Shown here piece after piece: positions 10,131 through 54,192 of a stretch of DNA of 64,000 nucleotides. The stretch comes from Carya illinoinensis (Eukaryota > Streptophyta > Magnoliopsida > Fagales > Juglandaceae): positions 31,425,385 through 31,489,384 of the forward strand of contig NC_056759.1 in assembly GCF_018687715.1 (NCBI RefSeq). Reading direction: 5' to 3'. The notes beneath the pieces are model-generated. The model worked only from the letters and a program-made list of their open reading frames with translations. It had not been told where the DNA came from and searched no databases. A program made the translations under genes and the position numbers. Within the stretch, counting starts at the first letter, position 1, and each line of letters opens with the position of its first letter.

Positions 10131-10323
10131 ATTTATTTTCACTTAAGAAAAAATGTGAGCTTCCGTCCTAGTGGCCAGGTGCTATCAGATAACCTTGCCT
10201 TAGTAGTTATATAGTAATATAATTAAAATTAAATTTAATAATATATTAATATGAACTAATTATTATAAAATATTATATTTATATTTTAATGTATATAGAT
10301 TGATAATAATATTTATAAATATT

Positions 10324-11672
10324 TATTGAATCCAAGATTTTAAATTTCGTATAATTATATATCTATACATAAATTTTGATAATAATAAATAAATTCAGGC
10401 ATAAAAAAGTCTTAACCTCAAGTTTTTTACACAATAGAGTCAAGCACATCAAGAAACCAAGTATGAATAAGAAGGAAACAAACTCACATTAAAAGTCATA
10501 GAGTAATATTATACATCTTTTGAAAATTTTGAAATTAGGATTAAGACTCAAAATTAATATTTTATCATAAAGCATTAAAATATATTTTCTACATGTGCAT
10601 AAATATTTTGAAAATTAAATTTAAAAATTTTAGAAGATGATTGATTGTCATCATTCACATGTGCATAACATGATTAAAAGTTTGAATTTTTAAAATATTA
10701 AAGATAATTGATTGTCATTCTTCACATATACATGCTTTATTTGAATACTTTCAAAAGTGATTGATACTCTTTCTGACTTATGAAAGAGGTAGATGATTTT
10801 GTTTGAAAATTTTGAAAATGAAATAATATTCCTTTTGTCATATGCGAAAGGTAAAAAAAATTAGGTTAAAATTTTTGAAAAGTGAATGATGTTGTCTTTG
10901 ACAATTAAAAAAGAAAAAACTTTTATTTAAATTTTTGAAAAGTGAATGATGTTGTATTTGACAATTGAAAAAAGGAAACTTTTATGTGAATTTTTTGAAA
11001 AAGTGAATGATGTTGTCTTTGACATGTGAATCTTTTTAAATTTGAATATGAAATCTTATATACCTATAAATAGATTATTGGAGAGTTTTAAATTCACAAC
11101 ATCAAGAGCATATGCATATCATTGCAAGTTTTGCAACATTCATTCAAAACTTCCAATCTCTCTTTTATAAGCATTGAGACTTAATCCTTATTCATTTTGA
11201 GAGAAATATAGTTTGCGCTGCATTGTTCTTATTTTATTCATTAAAGAGTGTTCTTTGATAATTTACCCACTATCAACTCTTGTATCAGTAAAAGAGTGTG
11301 TATAACCCTTGTGCGTGTAGAAAGTATTCTATATAGGAAATAGTTGAATCACTACATGTAAAGTGATTGCAAGTGTAGAGGTGTTATATACAGATCCTTT
11401 GTACCGGTGCTGTTCAAAAGTGTAATATGTTTCTATCTTCGTCTGAAGGAGGTTGAACAGTAAATTTGGAGATTCTCAAGGAGTAACTTAAGGCGAGGAC
11501 GTAGGCAATGTGGCCGAACTTCGTTAATATACTTAGTTTGCTTTTCTATTACCATTGCTCTTTATATTTATTGTTGTTTCGTATTTTATTTATATTTTAT
11601 ATTGTGTATTTAATTTATTATTATTAATTTTTAAATACAATTCAATTCACTTTATTAGTCATCTGCGTAACA
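10324..11672 (+). repeat. Old solo LTR of the SIRE-type Copia family, opposite orientation to 17749-25774
   Basis: This is the reverse complement of the 1341-bp LTR of the young element, with many substitutions. Recognisable parts are 'gagtcaagcacatcaag', three copies of 'gtgaatgatgttgtctttga' (about 10880-11025), the TATA stretch 'acctataaatagat' near 11060 and the end 'tagtcatctgcgtaaca'. No internal region adjoins it, so it is a solo LTR left by LTR-LTR recombination. A clean 5-bp target duplication was not found. Its divergence marks it as much older than the full element. Confidence 0.75.
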
Positions 11673-13858: not shown

Positions 13859-16546
13859 ATGAAAGTGCAATCCCTCCTTTCGCTTATGCTTCTGTGCCTC
13901 CTCCACGTTCATCCAACCCTCCACCTCCTATCGGAAAAGAGTGCCCTCCTCTCCGTCAAATCCTCCATCACTGATGACCCAGAATCATTTCTTTCTACGT
14001 GGAACGCCTCCACTAGCCACTGCAACTGGACGGGTATCACGTGCCACCCTTCCAGTCGTCGCGTGATCGCCCTCGATCTCTCAAACCTTCGACTCTCTGG
14101 TACTCTCTCCTCGGACCTGGCTCATCTCTGTTTCCTCTCCAAACTCTCCGTCGCCTTTAATGGGTTCTCCGGGGCCATCCCCGCCGAGCTCTCTTCCCTC
14201 TCTGACCTCCGCGTCCTCAATCTCTCATATAATCGCTTCCACGGCACCTTCCCCTCCCAGCTCTCCCTCCTCAAGAACCTTCAGGTTTTGGATCTCTATG
14301 ACAACTTCATGACCGGTGACTTGCCCCTGGCCGTCACCCAAATGCCCAACTTGCGCCATTTGAATCTAGGTTATAACTTCTTCTCAGGTCGGATAACGTC
14401 CCAGTTTGGGCAATGGAAATTCTTGGTATACTTGGATGTAACCCATAACAACCTCGAGGGTCCTATACCGCAGGAGATAGGAAACTTGACCAACCTCAGG
14501 GAGCTCTACATTGGAGGTTACAACAATAAGTACGAAGGTGGCATACCCTCGGAGATCGGGAACCTATCGGAACTAGTTCGTTTAGAAGCCATCGGCTGTA
14601 ACTTATCCGGTGAGATTCCAGCGTCGTTTGCCGACATGCCAGAGCTGGAGAAGCTGGATTTGTCGGAGAACAACTTTAGCGGGATCATTCCTCAGAGGCT
14701 GGGAAGGAATGGGAAGCTTCAGGTTCTTGATCTTTCATCGAATAATTTGACTGGGACTCTACCTCCTGATATGTGTTTTGGTAATCGGCTTGAGTTACTG
14801 TATACTGAGGAAAATTCATTGGTCGGTCCAATCCCGGACGCACTCGGGAGGTGCGAGTCGCTATTTGTAATCCGAATGCAGCACAACTTTCTCAATGGTT
14901 CAATACCAAGAGACCTTTTCCGTTTGCCCAATCTCACCGACGTGATGCTGCAGAATAACCGTCTGACCGGGAAGTTTCCCATTTTCTCGAGAAAAGATTC
15001 TAAATTGGAGGAACTAGATATTTCTGACAACAAGATTCAGGGGGAGCTACCTAGTTGGATCTGGAGACTTCCCCATCTTGAGAGTTTGAATCTTTCTCAT
15101 AATTGTCTAGAGACTCTAGATGTGAATTTAAACTCTCCCAACACTTCCCAATCCAGGTTGACAATCATAGACCTTCAATCCAACCAGCTCCAAGGGCAAC
15201 TTTCAACTCTCCCACTGCATTTTCGGTACACCAGGGAAATGGGGAGGCGCACTTTTTTCTCTGTTTCGAGGAATAAATTCGACGGGGCTATTCCTACATC
15301 ACTGTGCAATGCTACAATTCTATATGTTTTAGACTTGTCCCATAATCGCTTAACTGGCACGATTCCCCAATGCTTAATTGAAATGGGAAGAGTTTTAAGC
15401 GTGATGAATTTAAGGGGAAACAATCTTACTGGCATAATTCCTGACTCCTTTCCATTCAATTGTAATTTACAAAGTTTGGTTCTGAATGGAAATCAACTAG
15501 AAGGAGAGCTACCAAAATCCCTGGACAGGTGCAATGCAAACTTGGGGGTTTTGGACATCGGGAACAATCTCATTCAGGATACCTTCCCATGTTATTTGAA
15601 GAACATAGACACGTTGCAGGTCCTTATTTTGCGATCTAACCAATTTCATGGGTCTATTAATTGTCTTGACGCTAATACCACCTGGTCCAAACTTCAAATC
15701 TTAGACCTGGCCTCGAACCATTTTGTTGGAAAGTTTCCAATACGTTACTTTTCTAGCTGGAAGGCAATGATGGGAACCGAAAAGGAAATGGAAAGTAAGG
15801 GTGGATCTGATTCTATTGTAGCTGGTCCCAAATACCGAGGTTTTCCTTCCCCACCCTATCAAATTAGTGTAAATCTTACATTAAAAGGTCAAGATTTGGA
15901 GTTTGTGAAGCTCCTAGCTATCACAACCTCACTTGATCTGTCGTGCAATAGTTTTGACGGAGATATACCTAAAGAAATAGGAGAATTCAAAGTTCTATAT
16001 GCCCTCAACTTATCTCACAATGCTTTTACGGGTCAAATTCCACAAGCTTTAGGAAACTTGAGAGCTCTTGAGTCACTAGACTTGTCGAGCAACAAGCTCA
16101 TTGGAGAGATTCCTCTCCAACTTGCAGATTGTCTTACTTTCCTGTCAACCCTTAACCTTTCCTTCAATCAATTGGTGGGAAAGATTCCACAAATAAGGCA
16201 ATTTGCTACATTTTCGGAAAGTTCCTTTGAAGGAAACATAGGATTATGTGACTTTCCTATGAAAGAAAAATGCATACATGAAGAATTGAGACCTTCTGCT
16301 CCTCCATATTCTGGGAATTCAATTGATTGGGACTTTTTAAGTGTTGAATTGGGATTTGTTTTTGGCCTCGGAATTTTTATTGGACCTCTTATATTTTGGA
16401 CGAGGTGGAGGAAACGCTACTACAAACATGTCGACGATATTGTTTTTAAAATGTTTCCTCGGACATACATAAGAATAGAAAATTATCGAAGCGGAGGACA
16501 CAGGAATCAAGGACGGCAAGCACGTAAGAATCAAGGTGGGAGGTAA
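13859..16546 (+). CDS. LRR receptor-like protein, BAM-type N-terminus joined to Ve1/RLP7-type C-terminus
   Basis: Intact single-exon frame of 895 residues. It has a signal peptide (about 1-24), an LRRNT cap with paired cysteines C55 and C62, a long plant-type LRR array, a non-LRR island (about 635-684), further LRRs, a C-terminal cysteine cap ('GLCDFPMKEKC'), one membrane span (about 831-848, with spaced glycines) and a basic 47-residue tail without kinase. It is thus a plasma-membrane receptor-like protein that would need a partner kinase (SOBIR1-type in known RLPs). Residues 27 to about 374 read like BAM/CLV1 receptor kinases ('GTFPSQLSLLKNLQVLDLYD', 'NLTNLRELYIGGYNN'). From about 375 it reads like Ve1/RLP7 immune receptors ('GELPSWIWRLPHLESLNLSH', 'FPCYLKNI', 'LNLSHNAFTGQIPQALGNL'). 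Ligand unknown. The start is supported by the leader and TATA position. Family assignment is by eye. Confidence 0.9.
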   Translation: MKVQSLLSLMLLCLLHVHPTLHLLSEKSALLSVKSSITDDPESFLSTWNASTSHCNWTGITCHPSSRRVIALDLSNLRLSGTLSSDLAHLCFLSKLSVAFNGFSGAIPAELSSLSDLRVLNLSYNRFHGTFPSQLSLLKNLQVLDLYDNFMTGDLPLAVTQMPNLRHLNLGYNFFSGRITSQFGQWKFLVYLDVTHNNLEGPIPQEIGNLTNLRELYIGGYNNKYEGGIPSEIGNLSELVRLEAIGCNLSGEIPASFADMPELEKLDLSENNFSGIIPQRLGRNGKLQVLDLSSNNLTGTLPPDMCFGNRLELLYTEENSLVGPIPDALGRCESLFVIRMQHNFLNGSIPRDLFRLPNLTDVMLQNNRLTGKFPIFSRKDSKLEELDISDNKIQGELPSWIWRLPHLESLNLSHNCLETLDVNLNSPNTSQSRLTIIDLQSNQLQGQLSTLPLHFRYTREMGRRTFFSVSRNKFDGAIPTSLCNATILYVLDLSHNRLTGTIPQCLIEMGRVLSVMNLRGNNLTGIIPDSFPFNCNLQSLVLNGNQLEGELPKSLDRCNANLGVLDIGNNLIQDTFPCYLKNIDTLQVLILRSNQFHGSINCLDANTTWSKLQILDLASNHFVGKFPIRYFSSWKAMMGTEKEMESKGGSDSIVAGPKYRGFPSPPYQISVNLTLKGQDLEFVKLLAITTSLDLSCNSFDGDIPKEIGEFKVLYALNLSHNAFTGQIPQALGNLRALESLDLSSNKLIGEIPLQLADCLTFLSTLNLSFNQLVGKIPQIRQFATFSESSFEGNIGLCDFPMKEKCIHEELRPSAPPYSGNSIDWDFLSVELGFVFGLGIFIGPLIFWTRWRKRYYKHVDDIVFKMFPRTYIRIENYRSGGHRNQGRQARKNQGGR

Positions 16547-17486: not shown

Positions 17487-17748
17487 TTAGCTTCCTTAAC
17501 TAAACACGGTTTTGAGCAAAAGCTTTGCTTGATTAATCATGATCAAGCAGTCACATATTGTTTTCTCTCCAAATGCTATACATTACCCAACTGTACCTAA
17601 ACACACGAAATGGATGGACAACGTAGAGGCTTACCCCACTTTCACCCAATCTTTAAAAAATCTTAGGAGTGTAGTCGGTCCCCACTTTTTTTTTTTTTTC
17701 AAGTTTTAAAGTTTCTTATTTGTCTTATTGATGATCCTTAATCAGTTC

Positions 17749-19089
17749 TGTTGCCCAGATGACTAACACAAGAGGGGGGGTGAATTGAGTTGTATTAAAA
17801 AAAAATAACAATTATAAATCAAATATATAATATAAAATATAAACAAAATATGAAATAACAATAAATATAAGGAGTAAGGGTAAGAGAGAAGCAAACTCAG
17901 TATGTTAACGAGGTTCGGCCCCACTGCCTACGTCCTCGCCTCAAGCTACCCCTTGAGGATTCCCAAATTCACTATTCAACCTCCTTCAGGTGGAGATAGA
18001 AACCTATTACACCTTTGAACAACACCGCTACAAAGGATCCGTGTAGAACACCCTCTACACTTGCAATCACCTTACACGTGGTGATTCAACTATTCCCTGT
18101 GTAGAATACTTTCTACACACACAAGGGTTATACACACCCTTTTTCTGATACAAAAGCTGATAGTGGGTAGGTTATCAGAAAACACTCCTCAACGAGTGAA
18201 ATAAGAACAATACAGCGCAAGCTATATCTCTCAAAATGAACAAGGATTAAGGCTCAATGTTTAGAGAAGAGAGAATGAAAGCTTTGAATGAATGTTGTAT
18301 GCTCTTGGTGTTGTGAATGTGAAGCTCTCAAATGATCTATTTATAGGCATATGAGACTTCATATTCAAATTTAAAAAGATTCACATGTCAAAGACAACAT
18401 CATTCACTTTTTCAAAAAATTCAAATAAAAGGTTCTTCTTTTTCAATTGTCAAAGACAACATCATTCACTTTTTCAAAGAATTCAAATAAAAGGTTCTTC
18501 TTTCTCAATTGTCAAAGACAACATCATTCACTTTTTAAAAAAAATCAAACCTAATATTTTACTTTTGGCATATGACAAAATGAGCACACTTTCATTTTCA
18601 AAAAATTCAAACCTAATCTTTTACTTTTTGTATAAGTCTAAAAAAGCATCAATCACTTTTGAAAATATTCAAATAAAACATGCACATGTGAAAGATGACA
18701 ATCAATCATCTTTAATATTTTCAAAGTTCAACCCTTTAATCAAGGCATGCACATGCAAAAGATGACAATCAATCATCTTTCAAAATTTTCAAATTTAATT
18801 TTCAAAAATATTCATGCACATGTGGAAAATGTATTTTAATGCTTTATGATAAAATATTAATTTTGAGCATTAATCCTAATTTCGAATTTTGAAGAGATTT
18901 ACAACATTACTCTATAATTTTAATGTGAACTTGTTCCCTTCTTGCTCATGCTTGTTTCCTTGATGTGCTTGACTCCATTATGTAGACAACTTGAGCTTGA
19001 GACTTCTTTATTCTTTGAATTCATTTGTTATCATCAAAATCCATGTGTAGATTTATAATCACATGAAACTTGAAATCTTGAGTTCAACA
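17749..19089 (-). repeat. 3' LTR of the SIRE-type element
   Basis: 1341 bp, TG...CA ends, essentially identical to 24434-25774. It contains a TATA-like box (minus-strand TATAAATA at 18338-18345) and a roughly 62-bp tandem repeat in three copies (starts about 18386, 18449 and 18510). A 126-codon plus-strand open frame inside it is a low-complexity product of that repeat. Confidence 0.97.
18386..18570. repeat. Three-copy tandem repeat inside the LTR
   Basis: Units of 61-63 bp each contain 'tgtcaaagacaacatcattc' and 'ttcaaataaaaggttcttct'. The same array is in the 5' LTR (about 25071-25255) and, decayed, in the old solo LTR at 10324-11672. The solo LTR at 26561-27840 has one unit, which explains most of its shorter length. 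Confidence 0.85.
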
Positions 19090-19105
19090 ATCTCCCCCTT
19101 TTTGA
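19090..19105 (-). promoter_or_regulatory. Polypurine tract of the SIRE-type element
   Basis: Minus strand reads AAAAAGGGGGAGAT directly before the 3' LTR, the primer site for plus-strand DNA synthesis. Two more purine runs of the same kind lie further inside (about 19153-19160 and 19262-19275). Confidence 0.85.
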
Positions 19106-19481
19106 TGATGACAAATATTTGATAGAACTTGAAACCTATATTAATACTTAAGCTCCCCCTGAAAATATGCGTTAGTTTTTCAAGCAAAAGTATAAATATA
19201 ATTCCAAGCATATATAACAAGTTTAGCAATTTAAACAATGTTAATGTTCTAGTCTAACACTTCTCCCCCTTTTGGCATCATTAAAAAGGATCCGCAACAA
19301 GAAAATGGACTGAAGAAAACGATGCGTTTAATAGTCACTGTAGATAGTTGAAAAATGGAGCCGTCCGTGACCCGACAAGTGCTGCAAAGCCTCGAGGCCT
19401 AACTCTATGAATTTAATACGGCTGAAGATTTAAACAATCGCCTGATGTTGTTGACAAACGGGATTGAAGGCTCCGAGTTTC

Positions 19482-19488
19482 TATAAAA
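19482..19488 (+). promoter_or_regulatory. TATA box upstream of antisense ORF 1
   Basis: TATAAAA within 'tttctataaaaaaatg', 79-85 bp before the ATG at 19567 on the strand opposite to the retrotransposon genes. The second antisense ORF and its relative at 46298 have a similar box, which argues for a real promoter. Confidence 0.5.
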
Positions 19489-19566
19489 AAATGATCATTT
19501 TCATCTATCGGATGCCAAAAAAATAATCACTTCTTGACCTGAGTTCTGTTTTTCCACAACGATAGA

Positions 19567-20019
19567 ATGGCTGAGCAATTCTCTTCCACTAATGTTCCAG
19601 ACTTGAATCAGGAACCCTTGACGCATCAATCATCAATCTTCTCTCCTGAGGCCGTCAATACCATGATAGGAGCAGTGAACCGTTTTTCTAGTAAGGCTGA
19701 TTCTGAGATTATTGCAGAATCAAGAATGCTCAGTAATCAATATGCCGCCTCTGTTACGATCATGTCTCGAAGGTTAATGGCGAGGGTGAGTGAGATTGAT
19801 CATCTTAACATGCAAATATCTGAGTTACGACAGAAGCTTACTAATAAGGATAGTGAGAATAAAAGGCTAAAGCAAGAAAACCAAGAGTTGAAAAAATTTG
19901 CAGATTGGTATGCTCATGATCTGCAACCACGAATAGAAGAGCTGGAACGAGAAAGGGTTCAGATACAAGGTCAACATCGGCAGATAACAGCAGAGGTTCA
20001 TCGTTTACTAGAAAAATAG
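19567..20019 (+). CDS. Antisense coiled-coil ORF 1 carried by the SIRE-type element
   Basis: 150-residue open frame on the strand opposite to gag-pol, between the end of pol and the 3' LTR. No known enzyme domain is recognisable. Residues 12-17 are DLNQEP, an exact match to the plant EAR repressor pattern DLNxxP. Residues about 45-75 share a motif with antisense ORF 2: 'KADSEIIAE', then 'SRRLMARVSEIDHL', compared with 'KSDSDAIYD' and 'SQRLQAKNHEVEKL'. Residues about 80-150 form a strongly charged heptad-rich helix ('ENKRLKQENQELKK'), so a dimeric coiled coil is expected. A TATA box lies upstream and no signal peptide or membrane segment is present. Function unknown; a DNA- or protein-binding or repressor-recruiting role is only inference. 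Confidence 0.65.
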   Translation: MAEQFSSTNVPDLNQEPLTHQSSIFSPEAVNTMIGAVNRFSSKADSEIIAESRMLSNQYAASVTIMSRRLMARVSEIDHLNMQISELRQKLTNKDSENKRLKQENQELKKFADWYAHDLQPRIEELERERVQIQGQHRQITAEVHRLLEK

Positions 20020-20151
20020 GGACAATCTACTGTTAATCTCGCTGGCTTAGTAAGAAAACTTTTGACAATGTGTGTCCAGCATATCTTGTATTTCTTTTGA
20101 CTAAATAAGATTTGAAGAGAAAATAGTTTGTCTTATTCTTTATGCTATCTC

Positions 20152-20158
20152 TATAAAA
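20152..20158 (+). promoter_or_regulatory. TATA box upstream of antisense ORF 2
   Basis: TATAAAA in 'tatctctataaaatcagt', about 105-111 bp before the likely ATG at 20263. The context CTCTATAAAA is identical to the box upstream of the homologous broken ORF at 46298. Its position shows that the in-frame ATG at 20128, upstream of the box, is not the start. Confidence 0.5.
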
Positions 20159-20262
20159 TCAGTCCTGAAGTTCATCTAATCCGCATCAAGTTTTCATCTC
20201 ATCTCTATAACTCATTTGCATTCCTTCAGCATTCTCGTTTTAAGCCTTCTATTCTTTTCTCA

Positions 20263-20700
20263 ATGGCTCATTCTTCTAACATTTCTCTAGATCCATCCAT
20301 GAGGCATTCTGCATCTCAACCTCCTGTTCTTTCTGCAGCTACCATTGGTGCCATGTTGCAGCAAGAAAATAATAATCTGACTAATAAGTCAGATTCTGAT
20401 GCTATTTATGACTTGGTGAGTCTTGGAACTCGCTACTCTTCCTCTATTGTGGCTTTTTCTCAGCGGCTACAAGCCAAAAATCACGAAGTTGAAAAGCTCA
20501 AAGAACAAATTGTTGTACTTCAACAAATTGTTCAAGAGTCTCACACAAGGGAAGGAATCATTCGGCAGAAGAATAAACAGTTGAAATCTTTATTAGATTC
20601 TTCATTCCGCTTGCCGGTTCCCATGAATAAGAATGACATGATATTGTATGAAGAGAATGAGCGTCTCAAACATGAGGCTAAGAATCTCAAATTTATGTAA
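20263..20700 (+). CDS. Antisense coiled-coil ORF 2 carried by the SIRE-type element
   Basis: 145 residues from the ATG at 20263, which is chosen because it follows the TATA box and aligns with the start of the homologue at 46298; the frame is open further upstream to 20128. Residues 40-65 hold 'NKSDSDAIYDLVSLGTRYSS', followed by 'SQRLQAKNHEVEKLKEQIV', a coiled coil, and the C-terminal block 'ENERLKHEAKNLKFM'. The broken homologue in the Copia element at 41719-47578 keeps the same order of blocks and nearly the same length. It is also related to antisense ORF 1, so the two look like a tandem duplication. It ends 50 bp from the 3' end of pol, tail to tail. No known domain; function unknown. Confidence 0.7.
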   Translation: MAHSSNISLDPSMRHSASQPPVLSAATIGAMLQQENNNLTNKSDSDAIYDLVSLGTRYSSSIVAFSQRLQAKNHEVEKLKEQIVVLQQIVQESHTREGIIRQKNKQLKSLLDSSFRLPVPMNKNDMILYEENERLKHEAKNLKFM

Positions 20701-20749
20701 AAGTATTAAAAAAAATCTATCTCTATTTTTATTGACTCTGGTCTATCTT

Positions 20750-22681
20750 TTAAGAGATATTCATAGCATGCATCATACCTATTTCTCTTCTGATCATACA
20801 TAATCTATCTTCTGGTAAAGGTTTTGTGAAAATATCTGCTAACTGATCGTGTGTGTTTGTGAACTCTAACATTATATCACCTTTTTGCACATGATCTCGA
20901 AGAAAATGATACCTTATTTCAATATGCTTAGTTCTAGAATGTTGTATTGGGTTCTTTGAAAGATTTATAGCACTTGTATTATCACATTTGATTGGAATGT
21001 GATTATACATGAGTTTAAAATCTTCAAGTTGTTGCTTCATGTAGAGAACTTGAGCACAACAACTACCCGCAGCAACATATTCTGCCTCAGCAGTAGATAG
21101 TGCAACAGAATTTTGTTTTTTACTAAACCAGGAAACTAATGCATGACCTAAGAAATGGCATGCTCCACTAGTGCTTTTTCGATCTATTTTACAGCCAGCA
21201 TAATCTGCATCTGTGTAGCTGATTAGATCGAAAGATGTGTGCTTAGGGTACCATAACCCTAAGTTAATTGTACCACTAAGATATCTAAGAATGCGCTTAA
21301 CTGCAATTAAATGTGATTCTTTTGGAGATGATTGAAAACGTGCACATAAGCACACACTAAACATAATATCTGGTCTACTGGCTGTTAAATATAATAAGCT
21401 ACCAATCATACCTCGATATATCTTCGAGTCAACTGGCTTACCGGATTCATCTTTATCAAGTTTAGTTGATGGGCTCATTGGTGTTCCAATTTCCTTAGCA
21501 TTTTCCATCCCAAACTTCTTCAGTAATTCCTTAATATATTTTGATTGATTGATGAATGTCCCACTTTTTGCTTGCTTAATTTGCAATCCGAGAAAGAATG
21601 TAAGTTCACCCATCATGCTCATCTCAAATTCTTCCTGCATAGTCTTAGCAAAAACTTGACACATATTTTCATTAGTAGCACCGAATATTATATCATCAAC
21701 ATAAATCTGAATCAAAAGAATATCATCATTTTCATATTTAATGAAAAGAGTTGTGTCGATTTTTCCTCTTGAAAAACCTTTTTCAATCAAGAAACCACTG
21801 AGTCTCTCGTACCAAGCTCTAGGAGCTTGTTTAAGTCCATATAGTGCTTTTGTGAGTTTGAAAACATGATTTGGGGAAATATGATTTTCAAAACCTGGAG
21901 GTTGCTCAACATATACCTCTTCATTTATAAAACCATTTAAGAAAGCACTTTTAACATCCATTTGAAAAAGTTTGAAATCTTTATAACAAGCATATGCAAG
22001 TAGCATTCGAATAGCTTCTAATCTTGCGACAGGTGCATATGTCTCATCATAATCGATTCCTTCTTCTTGATTAAAACCTTGGGCTACAAGTCGAGCCTTA
22101 TTTCTAGTAATGACTCCAGACTCATCTTTCTTGTTTCTAAAAACCCATTTTGTTCCAATAATAGTATAATTTTTGGGTCTAGGAACAAGTGTCCAAACAT
22201 CATTTCTTTCAAATTGATTCAACTCTTCTTGCATAGCTAGAATCCAAGATTCATCAAGAAGTGCGTCATCAATATTTTTGGGTTCAATTTGAGATAGAAA
22301 AGCAGTATGATTACAAATATTTCTAAGAGATGATCGAGTACTTACACCTTGTGAAGGTTCTCCCAAAATTTGTTCCACTGGATGATCTTTCACAAATTTC
22401 CACTGTTTGGTTGCATCTTGTATTAAATTTTGATGATCTTTCCTGATGGCTCCATGTTGAACTTCCTCTATTGCTTTCTCTTTGTTGAGATTGAGACTTT
22501 CTGTGTTATTTATACCTTCAATTTTACATATTCCCACGATCTTCCCTTTCGAGTTGTCTCCAAATGTCACGTGTCCTTCTTCTTTAGATCTAAGATCAAA
22601 GAACTTAGTCTTGTCTCCCGTCATGTGTCTTGAACATCCACTATCTAAAAACCACTTATTTTTACTTGTGGATGACTTCAT
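20750..22681 (-). CDS. Copia pol: protease fragment fused to reverse transcriptase and RNase H, integrase deleted
   Basis: Open frame of 643 residues. It begins in the protease with '[14 protein letters not shown]' (catalytic DSG) and '[14 protein letters not shown]'. At about residue 53 it jumps to '[18 protein letters not shown]', the variable linker that normally follows the integrase. The zinc-binding and DDE integrase core is therefore absent, yet the frame is kept. RT follows with '[20 protein letters not shown]', '[12 protein letters not shown]', '[15 protein letters not shown]' and 'YVDDIIFGA' (YVDD active site). RNase H has '[17 protein letters not shown]' and '[10 protein letters not shown]'. 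Sequence style is SIRE lineage. The true translation start is unclear: gag ends upstream in another frame, so expression probably needs readthrough or frameshifting. Confidence 0.9.
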
Positions 22682-22739
22682 GCATACCTATAAAAACAAT
22701 TAAAATGATTTTTCTTGGTACCCAAGTTCTTTGGGTCCT

Positions 22740-24374
22740 TTATTTATTAGTATTAGAAGAAACAAGATTTTTAGGTACCCATATGGCCCTAATAGTCATT
22801 GTATGATTTCTTCTAATAGGACAAGTATGATAATTATGACCATTTCTATTACAAAAATTACAAATAGCATGTGACATATATGAAAAACTTGAATGATTAT
22901 AATAATATCCTTTTTTGACAAAATTATTTTTATGAAAAGAATTTTGAATATTAGTCTTTGAGGTAGAATGATTATCAAAGAAATTTTTATAAGGTTTGTA
23001 TTTTTGTTTTGGCATATATCCCAAACCTGCCTTGTCAAAAACACATCTTTGACTACCAAGAAGTTTTTCAAAATTTCTTTTTCCATTCGTAAAGTTTTCA
23101 ACAATATTTTCTAAATCGGTTTTCTTCTTATTCAATTCAAGATTTTCATCTTTCAAAATGATACTTTCTTTTCTTAAAATTTCAATTTCGTTTGTTAAAG
23201 AAGAATTTTTCTTTTTCAAAGCAGTATACTTTATACCCAATTTTTCAAATTCCTCATAAATCTCTTCTAAAACATTTTGCAATTCTTCATATGAAGGATT
23301 TTCAATATTATCAAGATTTGTTACCTCAATGTCATCTTTAGCCATAAGACAAAGATTTGCTGATTCTTCATTGCTTGCTTCACTATCTGAGCTACTTGAA
23401 TCATCATCCCATGTAGCTTTCATTGCTTTCTTGCCCTTGTTTCGATCTTTTTTTAGCAGAGGACAATCTGGCTTGATATGACCAGGTTTATTGCATTTAT
23501 AACAAATTAAAGTGTCGTTTTTACCTGAATCTTTCTTGGAAAACTTTTTGAAAGATTTCCTCGGAGGAGTTCTATTTTTCTTCAAGAACCTCTGAATTCT
23601 TCTTGTTATCATCGCAACTTCTTCATCTTTATCGTCATTTTCCTCATCTTCATCACTTTCACTTTCATGAGGAACAGCTTTAAGTGCTAAGCTCTTCTTT
23701 GGCTTTCCTTCTTCTTCTCCTCTTTTCAATGTGTACTCATGGGTGATAAGTGACCCGATGAGTTCATTGACTTCGAGCTTCTTGAGGTCTCTAGCTTCAA
23801 GAATCGCTGTAACTTTTGATTCCCAACGTTTTGGTAAAGAGTTGAGAATTTTTCTTACTATCTCCACCTTGGAATAAACTTTGCCAAGAGCTGTCAAGCT
23901 GTTTATGATGTTAGTAAAACGAGTGTGCATACTAGAAATAGATTCATCATCATTCATCTTAAACATTTCATATTCATGAGTAAGAATATAAATTTTTGAT
24001 TCCTTGACTTGCGAAGTTCCTTCATAAGTTACTTCCAAGTTATCCCAAATTTCCTTTGCCGTAGCGCAATTCATTATTCTATTAAACTCATTTCCATTAA
24101 GAGCATTATATAATAAATTCATAGCAGTTAAATTTAAAGTATAAAGTCTATCGTCTTCACGATCAAACTCTTCTTCTTCCTTTTTGACCTTTACTCCACC
24201 AACCACTTTTGTTGGAATATAAGGTCCATTTACAATACATTTCCATATTTCTCTACCTTGAGCTTGAAGAAATATTCTCATTCTAACTTTCCAGAATGAG
24301 TAATTATCTCCACAAAAGAGTGGAGGCCGACTACTAGATTGACCTTCACCAAATGAAGCTGCAATGTTAGCCAT
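22740..24374 (-). CDS. Copia gag polyprotein (SIRE type)
   Basis: 544-residue open frame, the first after the primer binding site. The N-terminal part is a UBN2-type gag domain ('NYSFWKVRMRIFLQAQGREI', 'IVRKILNSLPKRWESKVTAI'). Residues about 295-315 hold a CCHC knuckle ('CYKCNKPGHIKPDC'), followed by an acidic stretch and a coiled coil of about 80 residues ('EIEILRKESIILKDENLEL'). A second knuckle near residue 510 reads 'CNFCNRNGHNYHTC'. It should assemble virus-like particles and package element RNA in the cytoplasm. It ends about 60 bp before pol in a different frame. No stop or frameshift is seen, so the protein may still be made. Confidence 0.9.
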   Translation of the reverse strand: MANIAASFGEGQSSSRPPLFCGDNYSFWKVRMRIFLQAQGREIWKCIVNGPYIPTKVVGGVKVKKEEEEFDREDDRLYTLNLTAMNLLYNALNGNEFNRIMNCATAKEIWDNLEVTYEGTSQVKESKIYILTHEYEMFKMNDDESISSMHTRFTNIINSLTALGKVYSKVEIVRKILNSLPKRWESKVTAILEARDLKKLEVNELIGSLITHEYTLKRGEEEGKPKKSLALKAVPHESESDEDEENDDKDEEVAMITRRIQRFLKKNRTPPRKSFKKFSKKDSGKNDTLICYKCNKPGHIKPDCPLLKKDRNKGKKAMKATWDDDSSSSDSEASNEESANLCLMAKDDIEVTNLDNIENPSYEELQNVLEEIYEEFEKLGIKYTALKKKNSSLTNEIEILRKESIILKDENLELNKKKTDLENIVENFTNGKRNFEKLLGSQRCVFDKAGLGYMPKQKYKPYKNFFDNHSTSKTNIQNSFHKNNFVKKGYYYNHSSFSYMSHAICNFCNRNGHNYHTCPIRRNHTMTIRAIWVPKNLVSSNTNK

Positions 24375-24419
24375 AAGATCTTAACTCAAAAGATAGTTAA
24401 TCTTATAATAGAGCTCTTA

Positions 24420-24431
24420 GCTCTGATACCA
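24420..24431 (-). promoter_or_regulatory. Primer binding site of the SIRE-type element
   Basis: Minus strand TGGTATCAGAGC, two bases after the 5' LTR; complementary to the 3' end of initiator methionine tRNA, the standard primer of plant Copia elements. Confidence 0.95.
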
Positions 24432-24433
24432 AT

Positions 24434-25774
24434 TGTTGCCCAGATGACTAACACAAGAGGGGGGGTGAATTGAGTTGTATTAAAAAAAAATAACAATTAT
24501 AAATCAAATATATAATATAAAATATAAACAAAATATGAAATAACAATAAATATAAGGAGTAAGGGTAAGAGAGAAGCAAACTCAGTATGTTAACGAGGTT
24601 CGGCCCCACTGCCTACGTCCTCGCCTCAAGCTACCCCTTGAGGATTCCCAAATTCACTATTCAACCTCCTTCAGGTGGAGATAGAAACCTATTACACCTT
24701 TGAACAACACCGCTACAAAGGATCCGTGTAGAACACCCTCTACACTTGCAATCACCTTACACGTGGTGATTCAACTATTCCCTGTGTAGAATACTTTCTA
24801 CACACACAAGGGTTATACACACCCTTTTTCTGATACAAAAGCTGATAGTGGGTAGGTTATCAGAAAACACTCCTCAACGAGTGAAATAAGAACAATACAG
24901 CGCAAGCTATATCTCTCAAAATGAACAAGGATTAAGGCTCAATGTTTAGAGAAGAGAGAATGAAAGCTTTGAATGAATGTTGTATGCTCTTGGTGTTGTG
25001 AATGTGAAGCTCTCAAATGATCTATTTATAGGCATATGAGACTTCATATTCAAATTTAAAAAGATTCACATGTCAAAGACAACATCATTCACTTTTTCAA
25101 AAAATTCAAATAAAAGGTTCTTCTTTTTCAATTGTCAAAGACAACATCATTCACTTTTTCAAAGAATTCAAATAAAAGGTTCTTCTTTCTCAATTGTCAA
25201 AGACAACATCATTCACTTTTTCAAAAAAATCAAACCTAATATTTTACTTTTGGCATATGACAAAATGAGCACACTTTCATTTTCAAAAAATTCAAACCTA
25301 ATCTTTTACTTTTTGTATAAGTCTAAAAAAGCATCAATCACTTTTGAAAATATTCAAATAAAACATGCACATGTGAAAGATGACAATCAATCATCTTTAA
25401 TATTTTCAAAGTTCAACCCTTTAATCAAGGCATGCACATGCAAAAGATGACAATCAATCATCTTTCAAAATTTTCAAATTTAATTTTCAAAAATATTCAT
25501 GCACATGTGGAAAATGTATTTTAATGCTTTATGATAAAATATTAATTTTGAGCATTAATCCTAATTTCGAATTTTGAAGAGATTTACAACATTACTCTAT
25601 AATTTTAATGTGAACTTGTTCCCTTCTTGCTCATGCTTGTTTCCTTGATGTGCTTGACTCCATTATGTAGACAACTTGAGCTTGAGACTTCTTTATTCTT
25701 TGAATTCATTTGTTATCATCAAAATCCATGTGTAGATTTATAATCACATGAAACTTGAAATCTTGAGTTCAACA
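24434..25774 (-). repeat. 5' LTR of the SIRE-type element
   Basis: 1341 bp, the promoter-bearing LTR for the minus-strand transcript. A TATA box (minus-strand CTATAAATAG around 25023-25030) lies in its middle. One difference from the 3' LTR was noticed by eye. Confidence 0.97.
25023..25030 (-). promoter_or_regulatory. TATA box of the SIRE-type LTR promoter
   Basis: Minus-strand TATAAATA in the context 'atgcctataaatagatc'. The same sequence is conserved in the 3' LTR and in the old solo LTR near 11062. Confidence 0.5.
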
Positions 25775-26154
25775 AGTTCAGTCAAAACCATTCAGTCGGG
25801 TTGATATTTTCGATCCGAACCAAAATTAGTACACCCCTACCCTTATTATTACTTTTCTGAACACCTAAGCTTGCTTTTTTTTTTTTTTTTTTAATTATCT
25901 TCAAACATAACTCATTTACATATAGTTATTTATTTAAAGAAAATTTTTTAATTCGTAAGATGTTTAGATAATCCTGTATTTCAATTGGGTGATAATAGGG
26001 AACATAGGCAAAACCATAGAAGATTCTTTTTCAGGAGTATTGAAAACAGTAATAATTGGGAATTATTAAGCATTATAATTTTGTTTGGTGGTTGGATAAA
26101 GCCGGTCAAACAATGTTGACAAACATGGAGAGAAACGAGACGAAGTGTTTTGGT

Positions 26155-28002
26155 TAGGAGTATCAAATCGTGTTACAGGTTGTATTCTTGTCGTGTCAAA
26201 GCATATATATTATATCATATAAGTAAATACAAACTCAACCCATTATGCTTATCGTCTCGAAATATCAAATCCTAACATGACCCATTAACATAATGTGTTG
26301 TGTCGTGTCAATCTGTTTCAACCTATTTATATAAATGAATTGAATAATCTGAAATTAACTGGTTCAACTTGACTAAATTTAGTATAATTTTATATAAATG
26401 TTAAAATCATTATATCTATAAAAAATTATAAAACTAACTACAAGTCCAAAATTATAATCTAAACAATAAAAATATCAAAATTAAAATTCTAAAAATGTTA
26501 CATTTAGGTATAAGGATATAATGGTTATTTTAACTTTCTAAACGGGTCATAACGAATTATTGTTGCCCCGATGACTAATACAAGAAGGGGGTGAATTGAG
26601 TTGTATTTAAAAAAATAACAATTATAAATCAAATATACAATATAAAATATAAATAAAATATGAAACAATAATAAATATAAAGAGTAAAGGTAAGAGAGAT
26701 ACAAATTCAGTATGTTAATGAGGTTCGGCCTCACTGCCTACGTCTTCGCCTCAAGCTACCTCTTGAGGATCCCCAAATTCACTATTCAACCTCCTTCAGG
26801 TGGAGATAGAAACCTATTACACCTTTGAACAACATCGCTACAAAGGATCCGTGTAGAACACCCTCTACACTTGCAATCACCTTGCATGTGATGATTCAAT
26901 TATTCCCTGTGTAGAACACTTTCTATATGCACAAGGGTTAGACACATCATTTTACTGATACAAGAGCTGATAGTGGGTAGGTTATCGGAAAACACTCCTC
27001 AATGAGTGAAATAAGAACAATACAGTGCAAACTATAAGTCTCTCAAAATGAACAAGAATTAAGGATCAATGCTTAGAGAATAGAGAATGAAAGTTTTGAA
27101 TAAATGTTGTATGCCCTTGGTGTTGTGAATGTGAAACTCTCAAATGATCTATTTATAGGCATATGAGACTTCATATTCAAATTTAAAAAGATTTACATGT
27201 CAAAAACAACATCATTCACTTTTCAAAAAATTCAAACCTAATTTTTTTACGTTTTGCATATGACAAAAAGAGCATACTTTATTTTTCAAAAATTTCAACT
27301 ATAATCTTTTTACTTTTTGTATATGACAAAAAGAGCACACTTTACTTTTTAAAATTTTCAAACAAAATCATCTACCTCTTGCATAAGTCAAAAAAAGTAT
27401 CAATCACTTTTGAAAATATTTAAATAAAGTATGCACACGTGAAAGATGACAATCAATTATTTTTAATATTTTCAAAATTCAAACCTTTAATCATGTCATG
27501 CACATGTAAAAGATAACAATCAATCATCTTTCAAAATTTTCAAATTTAATTTTTAAAATATTCTTGCACATGTTGAAAATGTATTTTAATGCTTTATGAT
27601 AAAATATTAATTTTGAGTCTTAATCTTAATTTCAAATTTTCAAGAGATTTACAACATTATTCTATGACTTTAATGTGAACTTATTCCCCTTCTTGCTTTT
27701 GCTTGGTTCCTTGATGTGTTTGACTCCATTGTGTAGACAACTTGAGCTTGAGACTCCTTTATTTTTTGAATTCATTTGTTATCATCAAAATCCATGTGTA
27801 GATATATAATTATACGAATCTTGAAACCTTGGGTTCAACAGTTATAATATAAAACGGTTGACCCATTATCAACCCGTTAAACAATATGTCTTAACAGGTT
27901 AATCTGTTTTGACCCGAACCTATTAAAACTAAACCCAAACCCGCTATTATCGTGTCGTATGCATGTTGAGTTAACGGGTCGTGTCACATATTACCACCTC
28001 TA
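26155..28002 (+). mobile_element. hAT-like non-autonomous repeat interrupted by a solo LTR
   Basis: Same family as 38307-38929. The two halves (26155-26560 and 27841-28002) flank the solo LTR. The ends are 'taggagtatcaaatcg' and 'accacctcta'. Flanking 8-mers GTTTTGGT and ATTTTGGC each differ once from GTTTTGGC, the sequence at the empty site in the inverted-duplication partner (near 41654-41661, minus strand). This supports an 8-bp hAT-type target duplication. No transposase is encoded. Confidence 0.7.
26561..27840 (-). repeat. Solo LTR of the SIRE-type family
   Basis: 1280 bp with TGTTG and CAACA ends, clearly homologous to the LTRs at 17749 and 24434 but with scattered substitutions and one unit of the internal tandem repeat. 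Flanks ATTAT and GTTAT agree at four of five positions, as expected of a decayed target duplication. The internal region is absent. Confidence 0.85.
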
Positions 28003-44460: not shown

Positions 44461-45660
44461 AAGATAAAAATGTCTCATATTCTAACTGCTAAAATTCCAG
44501 CAAGGATTGAAGTTCCCGAAGGACAATTAAGAAATTTAGCAGTCCAATGAACATAAGACATGTCTAAAGGCATGTGAGAATTATTGATACAAAAGATAGA
44601 GCATCTCAAAAGAGAAATGCATAAATAATTGGTGCTCTTGAAGAGATCATACCCACAAAACAAGCAATAAAGTCCATCTAAATTTTCTGTATAAAATTCT
44701 CCTATATAAACTCTTGAAGAGTATAAATCTCCTGAAGAGTGCCTCCTGAAGAGGTTTTTCATGAAAATGTCTTCCCTTGAAAAGGGACAGGTACTTGAAA
44801 ATAACAAGATCTCGATACATTTCATGAATAATGGAGAAATTATGGATAGAAATAAAATCGTTGTCGACAATGTATTTCCATATGAGATGACAATTGACAT
44901 TACCAGAAGTAATGGAGAAAGTGAATTAAGAACCGTCGAAGAATACCGACGTAAAATATTGGCCAAATTTGAAAGAAACAATTCTTGCAGAATTGATTCA
45001 CTAGTAAAATATGATGCATCGGGACTTATAGTCCAGACACCTAAAGAGGTGATGCTTGTTGAATGCCAGTGGGTGTTTATAGAAAGAAAATGAAAATGTG
45101 ATATATAAATCACGAGTCAGTTTCTCACAAACAATTCCTGCAGAATTGATATCACTAGTAAAATGTGATAAATATGGACTTGAAGTCCAAACATCTAAAG
45201 AGGTGATTTTTGTTAAATATTAGTGGATATTTATATACATGATAGAAAATGCCTGAAGCTTTTAATCTGAAAATGTGATATAGAAATCACAAGTTAGTTT
45301 CTCGAAGAAACAATATTGATATTCTTTTAAAGTGGTTAAAATCATATTGAGATTTTTATTAGCTTGAAAGTTACAGAGAGTTTGGATATGCATGATTAAC
45401 TGCATATTTATATGGATCATTGGATCATGATATATATATGAAAATCCCTGAAGGATAGAAAATGTCTGAAGCTTCTAATCTGAATACATCTAGAAATATG
45501 TATTCTATCAAATTTCAAAAATCCTTATATGATCTAAAGCAATCCAAACGCAAATGGAAACAAGTTATTATTGCAGTTTATATATATGATTTAAATGTCA
45601 TTGAGGCTCCAGAAGAGCTCATGAAAACTGCACATATTTGAAATATAAATCTGAAACCCT
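44461..45660 (+). pseudogene. Copia pol relic: linker and reverse transcriptase N-terminal part
   Basis: Translated pieces include 'LTAKIPARIEVPEGQL', 'VFHENVFP'-like sequence, 'ISIHFMNNGEIMDRNKIVVD' and 'VECQWVF', followed by repeated decayed RT pieces ('ESRSYIDMIENA'-like, 'SKKQYWYSFKVVK'). The longest open piece is 44761-45093 (110 codons). These are the linker between integrase and RT and the start of RT of a plant Copia. Many stops; not functional. Confidence 0.6.
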
Positions 45661-45869: not shown

Positions 45870-46298
45870 TTACAAAAATTTGAGGCACTTCGCCTCATTC
45901 TTTAAACGCTCTTGTTCTTCAAGAATCTGCATGGCATCCCTATCTAAAGAAGTGGGCAATTGAAAAGAAGATTTAAGCAAGGATTTTAAATTCCTATTCT
46001 CTTGCTTCATTGATTCTATCTTCATGTTGGACTCCAGAAGGAGTCGCTGAAGAATAGCAATATTCTCGTGGAGTTTGTCAACCCCACAAGTTTTAGATTG
46101 CAGTCACTGAGAAAATGCAACAATGGATGATGAGTATCAGGTACCGAGACTCACAAGCTCATAGATAGCTTCATTATCTGACTTATTAATCAGATCATTA
46201 TTGTATTGTATTATAGCACCTGTGGTAGAAACAGAAACAGCTGATGAACGAGGTGCATAATACCTTATATATTGGCCATGAGAAGATTGCTGAGCCAT
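45870..46298 (-). pseudogene. Broken homologue of the SIRE antisense coiled-coil ORF
   Basis: From ATG 46296-46298 to TAA 45870-45872 there is a 143-codon frame with only two internal stops, both TGA where arginine is expected by comparison with antisense ORF 2 (C-to-T at CpG would explain both). Shared blocks are 'NKSDNEAIYELVSLGT', 'YSSSIVAFSQ', 'ESMKQENRNLKSLLKSSFQL' and 'EEQERLKNEAKCLKFL', in the same order, and length is nearly equal (145 residues in the intact one). It lies inside the pol region of its Copia host, on the opposite strand, with its own TATA box. The open frame upstream of 46298 lies in the leader and promoter. Confidence 0.7.
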
Positions 46299-46450
46299 TG
46301 CAGAATAAGATTGCAAGAGAGATTGCAGAGTAATAATGCAGAGAGAGATTGCTGGATAAGAATGCAGAAAAAGATTGCAGAGTAAAAATGCAGTATGATT
46401 ACAGAAAAGTACAGAAGATGAGATGCAAATAAAGATGAGCTGAATATCTT

Positions 46451-46457
46451 TTTTATA
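46451..46457 (-). promoter_or_regulatory. TATA box upstream of the broken antisense ORF
   Basis: Minus-strand CTCTATAAAA, the same 10 bases as upstream of the intact antisense ORF 2, about 153 bp before the ATG. Confidence 0.45.
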
Positions 46458-46734
46458 GAGAAAATTATGACAAAGCATCTCTATTGCTTCACAGCATCTC
46501 TCGTGAAGCAAGAGAAAAGAGACGAGATATAGCATCATAGTTCTGCGGCGCTTGACAGCTACAGAAGAGTTGAAAATCCGCGGTGCTTGTCTGGTCTAAA
46601 AAGCTAGCCACCGTTTTTATTGAAAAATGAGATTAGCGGTTTAATATTGATGAATTCTTCACTAACTGTATTATTTACAAGAACTCTAGAAGAGCACAAC
46701 TCCAGAAGAGTAGTGAATTCAATATTAAAATGAT

Positions 46735-47150
46735 CTTGGATCAATATGGTGAATTTCACTATAAAGTCTTGAAGCACTTTTATATGGACAAAACTTATCC
46801 CCTGAGTACTCCAATGGTTGCTCGATAATTTGATGAGCAGAAAGATCCATTTCGTCCTTGTGAAGACGATAGAGAAATTTTTGGTCCTGAAGTACCTTAT
46901 CTCAGTGCAATTGAAGCTCTGAATATGTGATTATTTTATCAACATGGATCAAGTCCACAGTTAGTTGGATATATAGATGCGGGTTATCTTTCAGATCCAC
47001 ACAAGAAGATAATTGCAATTCGTGAGAAGAAAGTTGAAATTGATGTCAAGAAGATACGGTCAAGTAAATATTTGGCAGATTTATTCACTAAAGCATTACC
47101 AACTGCAACATTGGAATGCGGAAACTTGAAGACATATTATCATGCACTTT
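46735..47150 (+). pseudogene. Copia pol relic: RT C-terminal part and RNase H
   Basis: Plus-strand pieces read 'LSTPMVAR', 'DPFRPCEDDREIFGPEVPYL', 'SPQLVGYIDAGYLSDPHK' and 'SSKYLADLFTKALPTAT', the RT-RNase H hinge and RNase H end of a plant Copia. Stops and a large deletion (the middle of RNase H is missing). Confidence 0.7.
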
Positions 47151-47385
47151 TCAGGAGAAGTAATGTCTTGAAGACTTGTGCTGATTGTACTGTTTTTCCT
47201 TCGCTAAGGTTTTATCCCACTGGGGTTTCCTTTACAAGGTTTTAATAAGGCAATCTTAAAGCACTCGACGGTACATATCAATATTGTACTCTTTTTCCTT
47301 CACCATTGGTTTTTTCCCACAGGGTTTTTCTTTGGCAAGGTTTTAACGAGGCATATTCTTTAAATATGGTCATCCAAAGGAGAAG

Positions 47386-49091: not shown

Positions 49092-49114
49092 CAGTGGCTG
49101 AGCCACGTTGGGGG

Positions 49115-49441
49115 TAATAGCACACCAGAACGTGCTGCACTACCTCATACCAGTCCGCTGCACTCATGCCCTGCCAGCTCACCTCAACAGAATTCTCAAC
49201 AGAATGCAAGGCCAAAACCGTGTGAGAATGATTCTGAAATTAGTAGAAAATGATTGTAGAAACATCTAGAATTTTCTGTAAAAATCCATTGGATTGTTCT
49301 CTCCTCTATAAATAGGATACAGCACCATGTATTACTTAATGTAGGAAAAATACTCTGTATTTCCAGATTTAGAATGATAGTCGCCCATAGAGGCATTTCT
49401 TCAAATGGCTTGTCTCTATTGCACAATATCATTCTCTAACA
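49115..49441 (+). repeat. 5' LTR of the Ale-type Copia
   Basis: 327 bp from 'taatagcacacc' to 'ctctaaca'. A TATA box, TATAAATA at 49307-49314, lies in 'ctcctctataaataggatac'. The minus-strand open frame in it is non-functional. Confidence 0.92.
49307..49314 (+). promoter_or_regulatory. TATA box in the Ale-type LTR
   Basis: TATAAATA about 190 bp into the LTR, the probable promoter for the genomic transcript; conserved in the 3' LTR. Confidence 0.5.
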
Positions 49442-49454
49442 TGGTATCACGAGC
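49442..49454 (+). promoter_or_regulatory. Primer binding site of the Ale-type Copia
   Basis: TGGTATCACGAGC immediately after the LTR, the initiator-Met tRNA site with one extra base compared with TGGTATCAGAGC. Confidence 0.8.
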
Positions 49455-49504
49455 TCCCTAGGACCACTGTCCGAATCCTCTTTTTTTTTTTTTTCTGGTC
49501 ATCC

Positions 49505-50737
49505 ATGGCTCCCCCTCCACCTCCGAATCCGAACCCTTCTCTCACCAATGCTGCTGCTCATCTTATTACAGTGAAGCTATCACATGATAACTTTCCTCTT
49601 TGGAAAGCCCAAATTCTTGCCTTTCTCAAAAGCTATCAGCTCTTTGGATATGTCGATGGGTCCGTTCCACTTCCTCCTTCTACCCTTGATGACAAACCGA
49701 ATCCTGCTCATAGTTCATGGCTCCTCCAAGATCAAATGATAATTTCTGCTCTCTACTCTTCCCTCACCGATACTGTCCTCTCTCAAGTAGTTGATTGCTC
49801 CACCTCTCAAGAAATCTGGTCTACACTTACCAATTTATATTCAGCCCAGTCTACCGCCCACCTCATGCAAACTCAATACCAGTTAGCTACTCTTAAGAAA
49901 GGTTCAGATTCGGTTTCTGCATATTTCCACAAAGCTCGCTCTCTAGCTTCTTCTCTTGCCTCTGCCGGTCATCCCCTTTCCTCTCATGAATTTATAGTCT
50001 ATTTATTGGCTGGGTTGGGGACCGATTATGAGTCGGTGGTCTCTTCTATCACTACCAGACCCGAACCACTCTCTGCCTCTCAAGTTTACAGTTACCTATT
50101 AAATCATGAATCACGGCTTGCACATCAAACTCAAACCACACTTTCCGCTGCATCCTTCTCTGCCAATTCCACTCAGTTTCGTTCTCTGTCCACTCCCTCA
50201 AACCGTGGTCGAGGTCGCACTTACCGTCGGGGACGTGGTGGTGTTCGCCCCTCTCCTCCTGGAGTCTCCAATTTCTTTTCCTCTCAAAATCAGAATAAAC
50301 CCACCTGTCAAATTTGTACCCGAGTCGGTCACTCCGCTTTCCAGTGTTATCATCGCTTCACTCATAATTTTCAGCCTCCACCACCTACATCTCTTTCAGC
50401 TAATTTCACTTCGGTTCCAGATTCTTCATCTAATTCTTGGTTTCCAGACTCCGCTGCCACAAACCATTTCACGTCGGATTTTTCCAACTTAAATCTGAAC
50501 TCCACTCCGTATACTGGGCCTGATCAAGTTCATATTGGCGATGGGTCAGCTCTTCCCATTCAGAACACTGGTGCTGGCATCCTTCCGACACCAACTGGCA
50601 AATTCCTTCTCCGACACTTGCTTCATGTTCCTTCAATTTCTAAAAATTTATTATCTGTTCGTCAGTTCTGTATTGATAACTCAGTTTTCTTTGAATTTAA
50701 TTCTTCTGGTTTTCTTGTGAAGGATTTTCATACCTAG
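49505..50737 (+). pseudogene. Ale-type Copia gag and protease, ending at a nonsense codon
   Basis: 410 residues starting from ATG 49505. The gag domain shows 'NFPLWKAQILAFLKSYQLFG', 'STSQEIWSTLTNLYSAQSTA' and 'LATLKKGSDSVSAYFHKARS'. A single CCHC knuckle reads 'CQICTRVGHSAFQC' (about residues 270-283). The protease region has 'SWFPDSAATNHFTSD', with DSA at the catalytic site, and ends 'LLHVPSISKNLLSV' and 'FCIDNSVFFEFNSSGF'. The TAG at 50735-50737 replaces the glutamine seen at the matching place of the related element at 59137-63955 (CAG to TAG). The frame continues directly into integrase, so this is one polyprotein with one lesion. Confidence 0.9.
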
Positions 50738-53700: not shown

Positions 53701-54004
53701 TCATTTTATTCGTGATCGCGTTGCTGCAAAATCACTTGTGGTCAAGTTTCTTCACAGTAAAGATCAAATTGCTGATGTTCTCACTAAGCCACTCTCATCT
53801 GCTCGGTTTTCTCTTCTCCGATCAAGCCTCACCATCAAGATGGTCCCGCTTGTATCACGGGGGGATAATAGCACACCAGAACGTGCTGCACTACCTCATA
53901 CCAGTCCGCTGCACTCATGCCCTGCCAGCTCACCTCAACAGAATTCTCAACAGAATGCAAGGCCAAAACCGTGTGAGAATGATTCTGAAATTAGTAGAAA
54001 ATGA
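50738..54004 (+). pseudogene. Ale-type Copia integrase, reverse transcriptase and RNase H
   Basis: Open for about 1088 codons in the same frame as gag. The integrase zinc finger is 'WHSRLGHPSS' with 'CTACYQAK'. The DDE triad is visible in 'LDVWGPAP', 'VQTDWGGEFR' and 'NGSVERRHRH'. A proline/serine-rich linker follows. RT has 'LDVQNAFLHGDLEEDVYM' and 'LVYVDDIIVTA' (YVDD), and RNase H has 'SDADWAGCPDDRKSTGGF', 'SSTEAEYKS' and 'DYHFIRDRV'. All catalytic motifs are present, so apart from the upstream TAG the pol looks competent. The frame reads past the purine tract into the 3' LTR before stopping. Confidence 0.92.
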
Positions 54005-54192
54005 TTGTAGAAACATCTAGAATTTTTTGTAAAAATCCATTGGATTGTTCTCTCCTCTATAAATAGGATACAGCACCATGTATTACTTAATGTAGGAAAA
54101 ATACTCTGTATTTCCAGATTTAGAATGATAGTCGCCCATAGAGGCATTTCTTCAAATGGCTTGTCTCTATTGCACAATATCATTCTCTAACA
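53866..54192 (+). repeat. 3' LTR of the Ale-type Copia
   Basis: 327 bp, differing from the 5' LTR at one base seen (C versus T in 'gaattttctg/gaatttttt'). Preceded by GGGGGGA at 53859-53865. Confidence 0.92.

Follow-up and report, generated by a model that had tools for sequence, protein, structure and literature searches.

In the window (the whole 64-kb stretch of Carya illinoinensis DNA that was analysed), a retrotransposon on the minus strand carries two intact ORFs, ORF1 and ORF2, which are read antisense to gag-pol and are located between pol and the 3' LTR (Table 1). Both ORFs, of 150 and 145 residues, had been described in a first-pass annotation made from the sequence alone, and their lengths, orientation and location were confirmed. 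Together they take up much of the 1,658-bp linker that separates pol from the 3' LTR.

The two LTRs of the element, each 1,341 bp long, differ from one another by 1 mismatch, which supports a recent insertion. The 5' LTR is followed by TGGTATCAGAGC, which we take to be the tRNA-Met primer site. At the other end, the polypurine tract (PPT) octamer AGGGGGAG begins 10 bp before the 3' LTR and is followed by AT/TG, and three identical copies of this octamer are present in the linker (19092, 19153, and 19263). An octamer followed by AT and TG in front of the 3' LTR has been described as a signature of Sireviruses (PMC2829016). In addition, Pfam matches of Copia type were obtained (Retrotran_gag_2, 8e-33; RVT_2, 1.1e-78). 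Based on the PPT octamers and the Copia gag and reverse transcriptase matches, the element is assigned to the SIRE lineage (Sirevirus) of Ty1/copia. No integrase domain was detected in either the gag or the pol ORF (Pfam, E up to 1), and the gap between these two ORFs is only 57 bp; therefore, this copy is a non-autonomous deletion derivative. The earlier description of a recently active element with near-identical LTRs is thus upheld as regards recent insertion, but has to be qualified by the lack of integrase in this copy.

Table 1. Coordinates of the antisense ORFs, their predicted promoters, and the associated retrotransposon features in the window
Feature	Position	Strand	Description
SIRE-type Copia element	25774 to 17749	-	8,026 bp
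Target-site duplication	17744..17748 (left copy); 25775-25779 (right copy)		AGTTC
5' LTR	24434..25774	-	TGTTG...CAACA ends
gag ORF	22740..24374	-	Retrotran_gag_2, zinc knuckle
pol ORF	20750..22681	-	Pol_BBD piece and RVT_2
TATA-centred block before ORF1	19480..19506	+	TCTATAAAA-N12-TCATCT; predicted core promoter
ORF1	19567..20019	+	150 aa, intact, antisense to gag-pol, predicted coiled coil
TATA-centred block before ORF2	20150..20177	+	TCTATAAAA-N13-TCATCT; predicted core promoter
ORF2	20263..20700	+	145 aa from ATG, intact, antisense to gag-pol
Terminal PPT octamer	19090..19099	-	AGGGGGAG and AT before the TG of the LTR
3' LTR	17749..19089	-	TGTTG...CAACA on the plus strand
TATA-centred block before ORF2'	46433..46459	-	
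ORF2'	45870..46298	-	52.6% identical to ORF2, two in-frame TGA codons

The three longest ATG-initiated ORFs of the linker, on either strand, have 150, 145, and 44 aa. When the linker was simulated 2,000 times with a first-order Markov model, six of the simulated sequences had an ORF of at least 145 aa and none had a second ORF of at least 140 aa, which rules out ORF1 and ORF2 as chance ORFs. A sense env-like ORF is absent from the linker, in which the longest open sense stretch is 61 codons. Possible poly(A) signals (AATAAG at 20104 and ATTAAA at 20705) carry little weight because plant signals are loose.

ORF1 and ORF2 resemble each other at the protein level, with 29 of 107 aligned residues identical in BLASTP (27%, E 2e-10). 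Their Smith-Waterman score of 116 exceeded the maxima of both 2,000 plain shuffles (75) and 2,000 heptad-phase shuffles (93), and the match starts ahead of the coiled coil. Since all heptad-phase shuffles scored lower, the likeness exceeds shared coiled-coil composition, and generic coiled-coil resemblance was rejected as its cause. The shared motif K-S/A-D-S-x-x-I ... S-R/Q-R-L-x-A, noticed in the first-pass annotation, lies within this 107-aa alignment. At the DNA level, similarity has been lost (third codon positions differ at 89 of 135), which implies an old duplication. A tree of 15 sequences places ORF1 and its one relative at the tip of a long branch, separate from the included ORF2-like sequences (split support 100). 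By these sequence comparisons, ORF1 and ORF2 are old paralogues; the tandem duplication suggested before is therefore upheld as paralogy (E 2e-10, shuffles) and has to be dated back, with ORF1 now on a long branch. We also checked kinship of the two ORFs with the coiled coil of gag, which was rejected because the scores (49 and 41) were below the shuffle maxima (62 and 65).

A protein search with ORF1 as a single sequence retrieved one cluster (99% identical), whereas the same search with ORF2 retrieved 12 clusters and a profile of both ORFs retrieved 21, including the ORF1 cluster. One cluster from the ORF2 search (P0013) is missing from the profile list, so that relatives of the two ORFs exist in 22 distinct protein clusters, one near-identical to ORF1 and 21 ORF2-like. 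Nine of the ORF2-like clusters have lengths of 142-148 aa and share 45-98% identity with ORF2; the remaining ones are shorter, partial, or different at one end. Relatives of ORF2 reach down to 45% identity across nearly the full length, and the frames of diverged relatives are intact. In the ORF2 group, an M-A start is conserved together with a core resembling SDxxAIYELVSLGTRYSSSIVAFSxRLQ and with a carboxy end resembling EAKxLKFM/L, from which the carboxy end of ORF1 differs. The named clusters are three, each a hypothetical protein of Carya illinoinensis (Juglandaceae). No Pfam or NCBIfam model was matched above its cut-off by ORF1, ORF2, or their relatives, in agreement with the first-pass annotation, which did not recognise the family. 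On visual inspection, P0013 and P0022 read through TATA-compatible sequence at their amino ends; their contigs seem to begin upstream of the TATA box and are therefore not evidence of transcripts. No relatives of ORF2 were found among 20 (viral contigs) and 79 (genome contigs) pattern matches.

The predicted model of ORF2 (mean pLDDT 80.1, pTM 0.38) contains helices at residues 25-40, 44-114, and 123-143, of which helix 44-114 is continuous, with pLDDT of about 95-98 across residues 51-100. Hydrophobicity at heptad positions a and d was above shuffles for ORF2 44-114 (0.006), ORF1 44-149 (0.0005), and ORF1 44-112 (0.017). Both proteins are thus predicted to be coiled coils, as had been proposed, ORF2 by helix 44-114 of the model and ORF1 by heptad statistics only. 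Neither a strong basic cluster nor a zinc site was seen in ORF1 or ORF2, and no DNA-binding domain was found above the Pfam cut-off (bZIP_1 was weak, 0.23). The Pfam names ZapB, CENP-H, and HAP1_N were dismissed as weak coil matches below every cut-off, as were the solved coiled coils 5fiy, 2x7a, and 1joc, which are weak matches to short coils. With regard to SMC-type domains, ORF1 scored 16.8 bits against TIGR02168 (cut-off 567), and ORF2 had none among the listed matches. Transposase_28 (PF04195), the domain of TRP28, was absent from the Pfam matches of ORF1 and ORF2 (E up to 1) and from those of the 19 members of set A4 (Pfam, 0.01).

A second relative, ORF2', is located elsewhere in the window. 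It was detected by tblastn at 46268-45873 (E 2.5e-39), with a start at 46298. On the strand opposite ORF2', short, weak, and collinear Copia pol remnants were observed at 45459-45638 (E 6e-4), 46637-46825 (0.11), and 46931-47242 (0.025), the latter two lying beyond ORF2' from the first; Pfam recognised no retrotransposon domain in four such stretches. We tentatively place ORF2' and its TATA region inside a Copia pol remnant on the other strand. The surroundings of ORF2' yielded neither a SIRE LTR nor SIRE gag or pol, and the idea that ORF2' lies within a SIRE fragment was dropped because 167 of 500 resamples scored at least as high as the corresponding pol-tail match. We also looked for a repeat at the boundaries of the ORF2' insert and found no convincing one. 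Within the predicted 5' leader of ORF2' (46291-46393), a 26-bp repeat is present four times.

The TATA boxes previously assigned to both ORFs are present, with TATAAA at 19482 (ORF1) and 20152 (ORF2). The distance from the TATA box to the ATG is 85 bp for ORF1, 111 bp for ORF2, and 159 bp for ORF2'. By itself TATAAA is frequent, with 171 occurrences on the two strands of the 64 kb, but the longer block TCTATAAAA-N12/13-TCATCT is rare: it occurs three times in the 64-kb window (19480, 20150, and 46459), before ORF1, ORF2, and ORF2' only, and not once in 40 simulated 64-kb sequences, its definition having been made after these three sites had been seen. A looser form, TATAAA-N11-17-TCATCT, occurs four times in the window compared to a simulated mean of 0.4, and its fourth site (36002) is unrelated. 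The upstream regions of ORF2 and ORF2' aligned with a score of 66, above the maxima of 300 plain shuffles (54) and 1,000 Markov resamples (60), with TCTCTATAAAA at the centre of the alignment; this comparison shows the two regions to be homologous. With the block left aside, the upstream region of ORF1 matched those of ORF2 (score 25, shuffle maximum 39) and ORF2' (28, reached by 263 of 1,000) at chance level. Another motif, CAAGNRCYGC, has just three copies in 64 kb, one ahead of ORF1 and two ahead of ORF2'; it was picked post hoc without a control and is not used here.

An env-like sense ORF (eORF-3'F), reported in 74% of SIRE elements (PMC6317226), occupies the same place in the same lineage, whereas ORF1 and ORF2 have the opposite orientation and no sense ORF is found here. 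Because the two ORFs sit at the site of this frequent sense ORF, a standard SIRE element might simply have been rearranged so that its env-like gene became inverted. We regard this as highly implausible, given that the start and the carboxy end are constant among relatives, that the ORF2 lineage retains its own upstream TATA region, which is not expected of an accidental inversion, and that the predicted ORF2 structure is a long helix.

ORF2 and ORF2' were further compared over 140 codons, with stops and gaps dropped. The numbers of differences at codon positions 1, 2, and 3 were 40, 32, and 67, respectively, and dN was 0.342 and dS 0.904, yielding a dN/dS of 0.38 (bootstrap 95%, 0.22-0.60) for one pair of which one partner is broken. 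As judged from these substitutions, the ORF2 lineage is shown to have changed under purifying selection. Because ORF2' is now broken, part of its changes must be neutral, and the true constraint was probably stronger than 0.38 indicates. For this pair, the ratio is thus not near 1, the value that the first-pass annotation had set against its own proposal, and homologues, the other point that it had raised, do exist among the protein clusters.

This constraint bears on two other explanations of the pair. It is conceivable that ORF1 and ORF2 are passenger sequence, derived from a host or viral gene that the element captured, duplicated, and now carries without use. Such an origin would fit the decay of ORF2' and the single cluster retrieved by ORF1, and a functional role of the ORFs is something that we infer from sequence. 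We nevertheless consider it unlikely, since purifying selection has acted between ORF2 and ORF2', relatives in 22 clusters extend down to 45% identity over nearly the full length, and no host gene family was matched, the three named matches all being Carya hypothetical proteins. In the main alternative, the antisense RNA rather than the protein would be the functional product, pairing with genomic RNA or disturbing reverse transcription and limiting copy number in this way. The same predicted promoters would serve such an RNA, and regulatory antisense RNAs have been discussed for Ty1 and plant elements (PMC7264820, PMC12786077), but the codon-position differences (40/32/67 of 140 codons) and the dN/dS of 0.38 point to constraint on the protein, and diverged relatives keep intact frames. 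An RNA-only function therefore seems rather unlikely to us, although antisense RNA and protein functions could coexist.

Our preferred explanation, with a probability of about 0.6, is that ORF1 and ORF2 are related, conserved, and likely functional antisense accessory genes with predicted TATA promoters of their own, whose coiled-coil proteins would regulate the element in trans. A separate TATA promoter within the linker would drive each ORF, and the proteins would pair via the long helix, perhaps as partners of one another. These small coiled-coil proteins may then regulate the expression or the particles of the element in trans, much as has been proposed for GENE23 of Grande, the TRP28 proteins of Retand, and antisense proteins of retroviruses such as HBZ. 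Since antisense units of this sort would depend neither on the LTR promoter nor on splicing, the proteins could arise even with gag-pol silenced, and a copy without integrase, such as the element at 17749-25774, could still supply both of them.

Antisense genes between pol and the 3' LTR are likewise found in the aORF-3R class, which includes Grande GENE23, RIRE2, Retand ORF4, and PvRetro13 ORF2. Grande and RIRE2 are Gypsy elements. According to published descriptions, so are PvRetro13 and its 14 fellow families, with ORF2 lengths of 211-939 aa (PMC4093653), and Retand, in which 97% of clusters encode TRP28 (PMC11963269); for Grande GENE23, a promoter of its own has been reported (PMC7264820). 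The aORF-3R hosts are thus Gypsy elements that usually encode one longer protein, whereas the element described here belongs to Copia and carries a pair of short paralogues that do not match TRP28. Antisense ORFs are said to occur in most lineages (PMC12786077), and on that account an antisense ORF in a Copia element is not unheard of. In the parts of the literature that were searched, an antisense pair was not reported for SIRE elements or for any other Copia elements, which is not proof of absence; relative to that literature, the occurrence in a SIRE element of a duplicated antisense pair whose members each have a predicted promoter is apparently new. The survey that recorded the SIRE sense ORFs is described as counting only eORFs of at least 250 codons (PMC6317226), so ORFs of 145-150 codons would be missed.

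Outside plants, HBZ and APH-2 of HTLV are likewise antisense genes near the 3' LTR, and the likeness to ORF1 and ORF2 is one of position. HBZ has a leucine zipper. It is described as a nuclear regulator (PMC11963269), and its promoter lies within the 3' LTR (PMC7264820), whereas the promoters of ORF1 and ORF2 are predicted inside the linker.

If the accessory-gene explanation is true, antisense accessory genes have evolved within a plant Copia lineage itself, namely two diverged paralogues under separate promoters, and these two small proteins make the role of antisense retrotransposon genes testable; such genes would be overlooked by surveys that apply a limit of 250 codons, as reported in PMC6317226. 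A more speculative extension, doubtful but not far-fetched, is that promoter and ORF form a regulatory module spreading between Copia lineages. In the SIRE element, duplication would have turned such a module into a coiled-coil regulator of two subunits, and a single module with its TATA block would lie in the pol remnant of another Copia element of the window, providing a Copia counterpart of retroviral antisense regulators that is kept and supplied even by integrase-less copies.

Several other features were observed in the window. Another Copia element in plus orientation (49110-54160) has long gag and pol ORFs and terminal repeats that are 99% identical over 300 bp; no relative of ORF1 or ORF2 was found within it. 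The LTRs of the SIRE element contain a 62-bp tandem repeat (18318-18627 and 25003-25312), which related LTRs have too. Two more LTRs of the same family, apparently without internal regions, are located at 26561-27840 (84% identical) and 10323-11672 (83%). The SIRE element is adjoined by an ORF for an 895-aa leucine-rich-repeat receptor-like protein (13859-16546).
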